Source: Candidatus Poribacteria bacterium (GTDB lineage Bacteria; Poribacteria; WGA-4E; WGA-3G). From it: 64,000 nt of DNA. The stretch is from the NCBI GenBank assembly GCA_026706025.1, contig JAPOZO010000059.1:1-64000 (forward strand), in the 5' to 3' direction. The notes under the pieces are model-generated. The model made no database searches and was not told the origin of the DNA. It was given only the letters and a program-made list of their open reading frames with translations. Shown here in pieces: positions 38,029 through 40,740 of the stretch (positions are counted from its first letter, which is position 1; each line of letters opens with the position of its first letter). The position numbers and the translations under genes are program-made.

Positions 38029-38637
38029 ATGAAAAAAATTGCTGTTTTGCTACTAACAGTAAGTTTGACACTGATCGGTTTGACCAACGGTTATACAGAA
38101 GATGAGGATTTCGATGCTCGGAGTGCCTCTGATGTCAACGCCGATGGCTTCGTGAACATCCTTGATTTGACGTTCATTGCCTCACACTTGGGTAAGATGC
38201 CCACTGCGGATCAGGTTCCTAATCCGGACATCAATCGCGATGGCACGGTGAACATCCTTGATTTGGTACTTGCTGCAAGTTTCCTCGGCAAAACATCCGG
38301 TATCCCATTTGAAGTTACCGATGCGACTTTTGACGACATTATCCTGGGTTCCGAACTCCCTATCGTTGTAGAATTCAAATCTGAGTTCTGAATATACTGT
38401 ATACTGATGAAGCCTGTGGTCCCAGCGGTAGCATTAGAATATCGAGATACCTTCACGTTCGCCAAGTTGGACGTGAATACCCAAGAAGAAAAAACAGTCG
38501 AATATCGAATTCGCGGAACACCTACCTATATCGTATTCAGAGATGGAGAGATTGTAGGTAGATTTATTGGCGCGATGCCGAGTGCTAAACTGGTGCAGCA
38601 AATTCTCAGCATCTTAGAGATTGAAGAAACTGAATAG
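38029..38637 (+). CDS. Dockerin-thioredoxin fusion with in-frame TGA, probable selenoprotein (A)
   Basis: Read through one TGA (38389-38391) this is a 202-residue protein. Order: a signal peptide (KKIAVLLLTVSLTLIGLTNG); two dockerin-type Ca2+ repeats (DVNADGFVNILDLTFIASHL at 35-54, DINRDGTVNILDLVLAASFL at 67-86); then a thioredoxin domain from about residue 92. The TGA is codon 121 and gives ...VVEFKSEF-U-IYC-ILMKP, placing it on the first Cys of CxxC (compare E. coli FWAEW-C-GPC-KMIAP, with the later Pro aligned). The cis-Pro loop (IRGTPTYIVF, Pro165) and C-terminal helix are intact and the stop is TAG. Without readthrough only a dockerin stub is made; the internal ATG at 38407 has no ribosome site. 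Likely an exported thiol-redox enzyme. Confidence 0.8.
38404..38425 (+). promoter_or_regulatory. Possible bacterial SECIS stem-loop, gene A
   Basis: After the TGA, CTG (+13 to +15) can pair with CAG (+32 to +34), and GCC (+21 to +23) with GGT (+27 to +29), leaving the apical loop TGT with G at +25 and U at +26. Bacterial SECIS elements have an apical G-U about 16-37 bases after the UGA. The stem is short and has internal mismatches, so this is only suggestive. Confidence 0.4.
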
Positions 38638-38664: not shown

Positions 38665-40740
38665 ATGAAAAAATTGATTTGTTCATTGCTAACACTGAGT
38701 TTAGCACTGTTCGTTTTAACAGCAAGTTACGCCGAAGAAGATACCGATATTGAGATTTTGAGGGCAGCTGATGTCAATGCTGATGGAATGATAGACATCC
38801 TCGATCTGGTGCTGGTCGCTTCGGACTTCGGCGAGACATCCACTGCAGATCAGCCTCTGAACTCAGATGTCAACGGTGATGATAATGTCAATATCCTTGA
38901 TTTGGTCCTTGTCGCGAACCATCTTGGCAAAACTGTCAGACCTCCTGTGGCGTTCGTGAGTGTGGACCCCGCGATTGACTCCGAGATTACTGTGGACGAC
39001 ACCATCACCCTGACTTTTGACAATCCACCAGAGGCAGTTACTGTTAGTGAAGGTACGGCTACAGTCACTGATAATACCGTCACAATCGCGGGACCTTTCA
39101 CACCCGGCACCCTGGCGTTGACGATCACTTGGGCAGATGGTTCTGAAACGCTCAACTATACCGTCCGTCAGCCAGCGGAGTTTGTCAGTGCTGATCCAGA
39201 AAGCGAAACAGAAATCACCACAAACGATACCATCACACTGATTTTTGATCATTCACCAAAGAACTTTACTGTCAGTGAAGGCATCTCTATTATCACTGGT
39301 AATACTGTCACAATCATAGGTCCCTTTACACCGGGTGTTCTTGAGTTGACGATTATTTGGGCAGATGGTTCCGAAACGCTCAACTATACCGTCCGTCAGC
39401 CAGCGGAGTTTGTCAGTGCTGATCCAGAAAGCGAAACAGAAATTACCACAAACGATACCATCACACTGATTTTTGATCATTCACCGAAGGACGTTACCGT
39501 CAGTGAAGGTGTCGCTACAACTGATGGAAATACTGTGACTATCACGGGACCTTTCACACCCGGTACCCTTGAGTTAACTATCACTTGGGCAGATGGTTCC
39601 AAAACTTTCAACTATACCATACGTCAGTCTTCGGACTTTGTGAGTGCAGACCCAGAAAGCGGGACAGAAATTACTACGAACGAAACCATCACACTGACCT
39701 TTGACAATCCACCAGAGGACGTTACTGTCAGTGATGGCGTTGCTACAATCACTGATAATACTGTCACAATCACGGGGCCTTTCACACCCGGTACACTGGC
39801 GTTGACGATCACTTGGGCAGATGGTTCCAAAACTCTTGACTATACCATACATCAGCCTGTGGCGTTCGTGAGTATAGATCCTACAATCGAGTCGCAGCTG
39901 ACCGTGGACAGTACCATCACCCTGACTTTTGACAATCCACCAGAGGACGTTACCGTCAGTGAAGGCACCGCTACAACCGCCGATAATACTGTCACAATCA
40001 GGGGGCCTTTCACACCCGGTACACTGGTGTTGACGATCACATGGGCAGATGGAAGTTTAGAGTTTACTTACACAGTCGCCGAACCGGATACCGAGGTACC
40101 TTCAATCACTGGTGGAACTATCAACGATGGCGATACAGACGTTGATGCCGAAGCGATTAACAGTAGCGCATTGATTGAAGTCGAGTTCAGCGAAGCGGTA
40201 AGTGGTACCATCGCACTGCAAACCGAAAACGACGATGATGTCGGTTGGCTTGGTAAAGTCGAAGGTAATAAAGCGACTCTTGAACTCGTCAAAGGCAAAG
40301 AGCTTGACCCGGAAACTACATACGTTATTGCGGGGAAAGTTGAAGACGCTGCTGGCAACGAAACGGATATCAATATTACTTTTACGACCGCCAGTGCATA
40401 CGATGGCATCCCCTTTGAAGTCACCGATGAAACATTTGACACTCTTGTACTTGAATCTACGCTTCCTGTTGTGGTTGAGTCCTATAAAGATGGATGACCG
40501 TTCTGTCAAAGAATGGCGCCAGTTGTCGCCGAAATTGCCTTAGAATACAAGGACACATTTGTCGTCGCGAAATTGAATTCAGGCAACAATCCGAAAACAA
40601 TTCAAAAATACCGGTTTATAGGACATCCTACTTATCTTGTCTTCCAAGATGGAAAGAACGTTGGACGTTTCGGAGGCGTGATACCGAAAGCCGAGTTTAT
40701 CCAGGAGGTATTTGATCTGATAGATGTTGAAGAAAATTAA
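38665..40740 (+). CDS. Dockerin, Ig-like repeats and thioredoxin with in-frame TGA, probable selenoprotein (B)
   Basis: Read through one TGA (40495-40497) this is 691 residues. Order: a signal peptide; two dockerin repeats (DVNADGMIDILDLVLVASDF and DVNGDDNVNILDLVLVANHL); five 76-residue Ig-like repeats (94-473); a Big_5-like Ig domain (about 475-575, VEFSEAVSGTIALQ and LDPETTYVIAGKVEDAAGNE); then thioredoxin. Codon 611 is TGA in VVVESYKDG-U-PFC-QRMAP, again exactly the first Cys of CxxC. Pro655 in FIGHPTYLVF is the cis-Pro. The distance from TGA to the end (81 residues) nearly equals that in gene A (82). AAGGAAGG precedes the ATG, 27 bases after gene A. Probably a long-armed exported redox protein; the target of the dockerins is unknown. 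Confidence 0.8.
38944..40083 (+). repeat. Five tandem 228-base repeats encoding Ig-like units
   Basis: Each unit encodes 76 residues of the pattern FVSxDPxxxxxIT, DTITLxFDxxP, VTVSEGxAT, NTVTIxGPFTPG and LTITWADGS. Units 2 and 3 (39172-39399 and 39400-39627) share long near-identical DNA stretches, for example across the NYTVRQPAEFVSADPESETE boundary, which points to recent duplication or gene conversion. The unit number may vary between strains. Confidence 0.9.
40514..40531 (+). promoter_or_regulatory. Possible bacterial SECIS stem-loop, gene B
   Basis: TGGCG (+17 to +21) pairs with CGCCG (+30 to +34, one G-U pair), closing the loop CCAGTTGT. A further C-G pair (+23/+28) leaves an apical AGTT. 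G is at +25 and U at +26 from the TGA, the same positions as in gene A and within the window known for bacterial SECIS elements. Confidence 0.5.

Follow-up and report, generated by a model that had tools for sequence, protein, structure and literature searches.

Recoding of UGA by SelB together with a SECIS element is a standard process. Thioredoxins with a UxxC motif (PF00085) are listed among the experimentally verified bacterial selenoprotein families (PMC13188914, PMC9312934). The bacterial SECIS (bSECIS) model, as quoted in PMC13188914, specifies an apical loop of 3 to 9 nt with a G in the first two positions, a distance of 16 to 37 nt between the UGA and the loop, an upper stem of 4 to 16 bp, and a minimum free energy of at most -7.5 kcal/mol. 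Here, we analyzed a 64,000-nt stretch of Candidatus Poribacteria DNA (the window) containing two adjacent genes on the forward strand, A and B, each with an in-frame TGA at the first position of a thioredoxin C-x-x-C motif. Four lines of evidence strongly support reading this TGA as selenocysteine (Sec): the genome encodes the Sec machinery, Cys and Sec exchange at the orthologous site, the sequence beyond the TGA is under purifying selection, and a SECIS-like hairpin is conserved there. A and B very probably are exported proteins with Sec inserted at UGA.

Genes A and B are predicted to encode exported dockerin-thioredoxin proteins

Gene B (38665-40740) starts with an ATG at 38665 and stops with a TAA at 40738-40740. 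Codon 611 (40495-40497) is TGA and is followed by CCG TTC TGT (P-F-C), a placement that the alignment with relatives shares; with Sec at this codon, the product would be a 691-residue selenoprotein with the motif U611-P-F-C. The predicted protein begins with a signal peptide of approximately residues 1 to 23 (38665-38733; MKKLICSLLTLSLALFVLTASYA), of which residues 2 to 22 are helical in the AlphaFold model, followed by a type I dockerin domain (38767-38925; PF00404, above cut-off). An Ig-like arm follows, made of five tandem repeats with approximate limits (38947-40086), apparent as repeats in the sequence and as a string of beta-sandwiches in the model, and a Big_5 bacterial Ig-like domain (40087-40389; PF13205, 7.6e-14). 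The thioredoxin domain (40417-40707; PF00085, 9.9e-17) lies at the C terminus and scores 61.3 bits against a curated cut-off of 23.5. In sequence comparison with the PDB, it matches thioredoxin structures, the best being 1dby (4.6e-19). The protein scores below the NCBIfam TrxA equivalog cut-offs (57.1 versus 138 for NF006898 and 56.8 versus 96.8 for TIGR01068), and by these profiles gene B is not a housekeeping TrxA.

The AlphaFold model of gene B has a mean pLDDT of 78.9 and a pTM of 0.37, which makes the placement of the domains relative to one another unreliable, and the dockerin region is of low confidence. Within these limits, it contains beta-sandwich domains in a string and then a thioredoxin fold, with residue 611 directly before the helix at 612-627, as in thioredoxins; compared as a whole with the PDB, the model best matches Ig tandems such as titin.

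Gene A (38029-38637), just upstream, starts with an ATG at 38029, stops at 38635-38637, and would encode a 202-residue exported dockerin-thioredoxin selenoprotein. Its type I dockerin (38128-38271; PF00404) precedes a thioredoxin domain (38311-38604; PF00085, 3.7e-19, 69.1 bits against the same cut-off of 23.5) in which codon 121 (38389-38391) is the TGA of the motif U-I-Y-C. The two genes share 48% identity in their thioredoxin domains. The preliminary description had placed a TGA followed by P-F-C at codon 611 of gene B, which is read directly in the sequence, and had given tail lengths from the TGA of 81 residues for B and 82 for A, which our codon counts confirm. It had also proposed extracytoplasmic proteins in a short and a long-armed form, a layout that the signal peptides, dockerins, and Ig-like arm support at the sequence level. 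It had further joined the two genes into one redox module; their conserved adjacency is what suggests such a unit.

Across the genus, the locus keeps its place, flanked by a URO-D family gene on one side and a VWA/LamG region on the other, in the order A-B or B-A, and all named relatives carrying it are Candidatus Poribacteria metagenome-assembled genomes. In the relative G048, gene A (L018:1-1023, PYIY01000079.1) contains an inserted element just past the Sec position that encodes a transposase-like open reading frame (ORF); the neighboring gene B is intact.

The dockerins may tether A and B to cohesin-bearing proteins

The dockerins of both A and B match PF00404 above cut-off, and both calcium loops are conserved in the B orthologues. 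The genome itself contains 24 cohesin matches and approximately 73 dockerin matches above cut-off, and three of the four cohesin proteins inspected have the organization LRR-cohesin-dockerin-FlgD_ig. Given how common cohesins are in the genome, A and B could plausibly dock onto a surface scaffold. We regard their docking onto a cohesin partner as a reasonable inference rather than a result, with a chance in the neighborhood of even. The wider proposal, that the genus displays Sec thioredoxins on its surface through dockerin-cohesin docking and thereby builds a selenium-dependent extracellular redox assembly resembling a cellulosome with redox cargo, is tentative and on the doubtful side.

A serious alternative, to which we give somewhat less than an even chance, is that Sec insertion is real and that the dockerin serves only as a calcium-binding fold or as part of an intramolecular pair, with no tethering to a cohesin scaffold. 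The abundance of dockerins is compatible with this explanation, since many of them share a protein with a cohesin, and we identified no A- or B-specific scaffold; the number of cohesins, their occurrence in proteins of the LRR-cohesin-dockerin-FlgD_ig type, and the conservation of both calcium loops in B orthologues speak instead for tethering.

The proteins at L131, L133, and L134 combine an LRR, a cohesin, a dockerin, and a FlgD_ig C terminus (CHU_C-like in two) and are candidate surface scaffolds that contain both docking halves.

The TGA is conserved and the sequence past it is under purifying selection

We compared 104 thioredoxin domains of the A/B-related family from this genome and dozens of related Poribacteria genomes. 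At the catalytic position, 94 have TGA, 5 have TGT, and 5 have TGC; no other codon occurs. All 94 TGA-bearing domains continue in frame for 77 to 92 codons with no frameshift. A single 80-codon tail would stay open by chance in approximately 2% of cases [(61/64)^80], so that intact tails in all of these domains are far beyond chance. TGA is carried by four groups, namely A, B, C (short and lipoprotein-like), and E (small, with a dockerin), and a separate paralogue group has Cys (WCPFC) in all six species read. In a sister genus (L071 and L072), a single gene with Cys (CGWC and CIFC) occupies the place syntenic with A/B, and another sister genome (L073) has a single TGA version there.

A tree of the family requires three Sec/Cys changes and places A and B as separate clades inside a mostly-Sec part, with weakly supported deep forks. 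Sec is thus most likely older than the A/B duplication, with both TGA sites descending from one TGA-bearing ancestor, as far as the sequences indicate. The preliminary description had argued from the shared position of the TGA in two divergent paralogues that chance nonsense mutation is a poor explanation. That conclusion stands, given the strong support for Sec recoding, but the two sites do not count as independent coincidences: if Sec predates the duplication, their shared position reflects inheritance and selection.

In several genomes, two lipoprotein-like thioredoxins, one with Cys (WCPFC) and one with Sec (UGFC or UGAC), lie 2 to 10 kb apart (L034:2725 and L034:12248 on contig C65 of this genome; L115, L116, L122, L123, and L124). 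One neighbor is always Cys and the other always Sec, perhaps reflecting a division of labor.

Median pairwise dN/dS downstream of the TGA was 0.13 in A, 0.37 in B, and 0.21 in C, comparable to or moderately higher than the values upstream in the same thioredoxin domain (0.10, 0.23, and 0.22, respectively); these are simple Nei-Gojobori-type estimates and, because synonymous sites are near saturation, approximate. Evolution is faster in gene B than in A, and the downstream value of B is inflated where the hairpin described below freezes synonymous sites. Imprecise as they are, the values exclude neutral decay at the level of sequence comparison. Relaxed selection or frameshifts after the TGA in relatives had been named beforehand as evidence against recoding; the frames are instead intact and the selection purifying, which favors recoding.

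These data bear on whether the TGA is a true stop, through nonsense mutation, pseudogene formation, or deliberate truncation before the thioredoxin active site. TGA does serve as a stop codon here, ending 7 of the 45 complete ORFs of at least 200 residues in the window and 15 of the 104 thioredoxin genes. Nonetheless, a true stop is highly improbable in view of the 94 domains from dozens of species that keep TGA at this codon and an intact tail after it, the purifying selection downstream, and the Cys version at the orthologous site; moreover, the sole broken copy found, that of G048, is interrupted by an inserted element and not eroded.

A hairpin after the UGA is conserved in TGA-bearing genes

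If the TGA is read as Sec, a SECIS element should follow it. Across 34 gene B sequences, codons +7 to +12 are synonymously invariant (observed/expected, 0.00; 0.01 at +13), and the lowest of 98 nine-codon windows all fall within this stretch. The observed/expected synonymous change is 0.54 to 0.68 in other regions of gene B and 0.88 over codons +6 to +14 of the Cys paralogues. The frozen stretch folds as GGNGNC[AGUU]GUCNCC, and its third pair varies among C-G, U-G, U-A, and A-U in B and its relatives. On the basis of the synonymous freeze and these compensatory changes, we assign the SECIS-like hairpin of the window's gene B, GGCGCC[AGUU]GUCGCC, to 40515-40530, with its loop at 40521-40524.

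Comparative reading places the corresponding hairpin of gene A, CUGU[GGUC]CCAG, at 38414-38425. Its closing pair is mismatched; 13 of 15 sequences of its clade have ACAG, giving CUGU[GGUC]ACAG. The other clade of gene A and a related genus have hairpins of the GCGACC[GGU]GGUCGC type, with the compensatory versions GAGACC/GGUCUC and GAAACC/GGUUUC (C-G/A-U and G-C/A-U). Group C has UGAUGC[AGUU]GCAUCA with one compensatory pair, U-A/G-C, so that compensatory changes are seen in three paralogue groups. Standard pairs per hairpin exceeded a synonymous-codon null in all four groups (5.11 versus 3.84 ± 0.12, 5.64 versus 4.08 ± 0.17, 3.93 versus 3.32 ± 0.12, and 5.88 versus 4.17 ± 0.28). At the registers of the A and B hairpins, base pairs are far scarcer in the Cys orthologues and paralogues.

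The hairpins fit the bSECIS model as quoted in PMC13188914, with caveats for both genes of the window. The loops AGUU (B and C) and GGU or GGUC (A) agree with it, as do the UGA-to-loop distances of 23 nt (B and the GGU clade of A), 26 nt (the window's clade of A), and 35 nt (C). Between the two clades of A, the register is apparently shifted by 3 nt. Upper stems have 6 bp in the GGU clade of A and in C, 4 bp plus a mismatch and 1 bp in most B sequences, and 3 bp plus a mismatch in the window's gene A. With the conserved helix imposed, 32 of 37, 25 of 25, 14 of 15, and 17 of 17 sequences of the four groups reach the energy threshold, including those of the window (-10.0 kcal/mol for B and -9.3 kcal/mol for A); in the window's gene B, a competing, nonconserved hairpin is about equally stable (-10.3 kcal/mol).

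Folded as single sequences, the 56 to 72 nt following each TGA were no more stable than shuffled ones (z of about -0.05 to -1), and RNAalifold applied to A and B alone returned weak consensus structures; the short hairpins are visible in the codon-aligned sequences. An Rfam scan of the window matched no family. We discarded a bare geometric bSECIS scan as evidence, as stems of at least 4 bp also occur at approximately 53% of in-frame positions in the background.

The genome encodes the Sec machinery

The genome contains a tRNA-Sec with anticodon TCA (78.1 bits, well above the Rfam cut-off) adjoining SelB (352.8 bits), together with SelA (604 bits) and SelD (359.8 bits). SelD has one in-frame TGA (G000:C56:238667-239590) and by its sequence looks like a selenoprotein as well. 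Across the phylum, tRNA-Sec is present in 73 of 85 genomes and in 53 of the 56 of good quality. We examined apparent counterexamples with TGA genes and no tRNA-Sec (G050, G062, G078, and G036). A truncated tRNA-Sec lies beside SelB in G062, G036, and G078, cut by the contig end in the last, and in G050 it is SelB that is truncated, close to a contig end; assembly gaps rather than biology are the likeliest explanation. Apparent gaps also occur in G061, G030, and G033, which are 73 to 83% complete. The tRNA-Sec of G062 (L135:3459-3532) lacks approximately 20 nt of the 3' arm next to an intact SelB, which is probably a misassembly and less likely a real lesion.

The least probable explanation, that a suppressor or code change makes TGA tryptophan, arginine, or cysteine, would equally leave the frame open, as would any code with TGA as sense, but TGA also terminates genes in this genome, the exchange partner is always Cys, the tRNA with the UCA anticodon is a bona fide tRNA-Sec with a full SelA/SelB/SelD set, and the conserved hairpin after the UGA is confined to genes that carry the TGA.

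Discussion

With the TGA read as Sec, the computational evidence suggests a model in which SelB, tRNA-Sec, and the hairpin 23 to 26 nt after the UGA would place Sec at the first residue of C-x-x-C. The signal peptide would direct export from the cytoplasm, and the dockerin would tether the protein, most likely to one of the many cohesin-bearing surface proteins of the genome; in gene B, the Ig-like string would keep the redox domain away from its anchor. By analogy with known thioredoxin chemistry, we infer a redox function for the pair: the selenolate may attack disulfides or other oxidized sulfur in substrates on the surface or outside the cell, with the second Cys (C614 in gene B) resolving the selenenylsulfide. 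A single dockerin-thioredoxin gene at this locus probably gave rise to A and B by duplication.

The locus represents a case of genus-wide, syntenically fixed selenoproteins in Poribacteria, with Sec placed in an exported, dockerin-bearing, and, in B, Ig-armed thioredoxin. Routine gene calling is expected to cut both genes at the TGA. The occurrence of Sec and Cys orthologues at a single locus constitutes a natural experiment through which the value of Sec outside the cell is testable, and paralogue hairpins with the same AGUU loop at 23 and 35 nt make the spacing rules of bacterial SECIS elements testable.

We found no account of Poribacteria selenoproteins in the open literature searched, although an unnamed detection in the supplements of large metagenome surveys is possible, and no dockerin-bearing selenoprotein in that literature or among the entries consulted in the lists of PMC13188914 and PMC9312934. 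Like the bacterial thioredoxin selenoprotein of those lists (PF00085, UxxC), A and B have a UGA-encoded Sec in place of the first Cys of CxxC, and Cys homologues; the lists describe only the thioredoxin domain, whereas in A and B this domain forms the C terminus of an exported dockerin protein, with a long Ig-like arm in B. The DsbA-like, DsbG-like, and PF13098 UxxC selenoproteins (PMC13188914, PMC9312934) share a Sec site of the thiol-disulfide type and a likely extracytoplasmic location but belong to another thioredoxin-fold subfamily, and the entries listed have no dockerin. The Trx7/PDZ selenoprotein NF041199 (PMC13188914) likewise fuses a Sec-bearing thioredoxin-like domain to another module, but combines CxxU in Thioredoxin_7 with a PDZ domain where A and B combine UxxC with a dockerin and Ig-like domains. 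With type I dockerin proteins of cellulosomes, A and B share PF00404 with two calcium loops and the presence of cohesins in the same genome; the cellulosomal cargo is a carbohydrase, whereas that of A and B would be a redox domain. UxxC thioredoxin selenoproteins are thus already known, and the combination of a signal peptide, a dockerin, an Ig-like arm, and a Sec-thioredoxin is a new variation on them.
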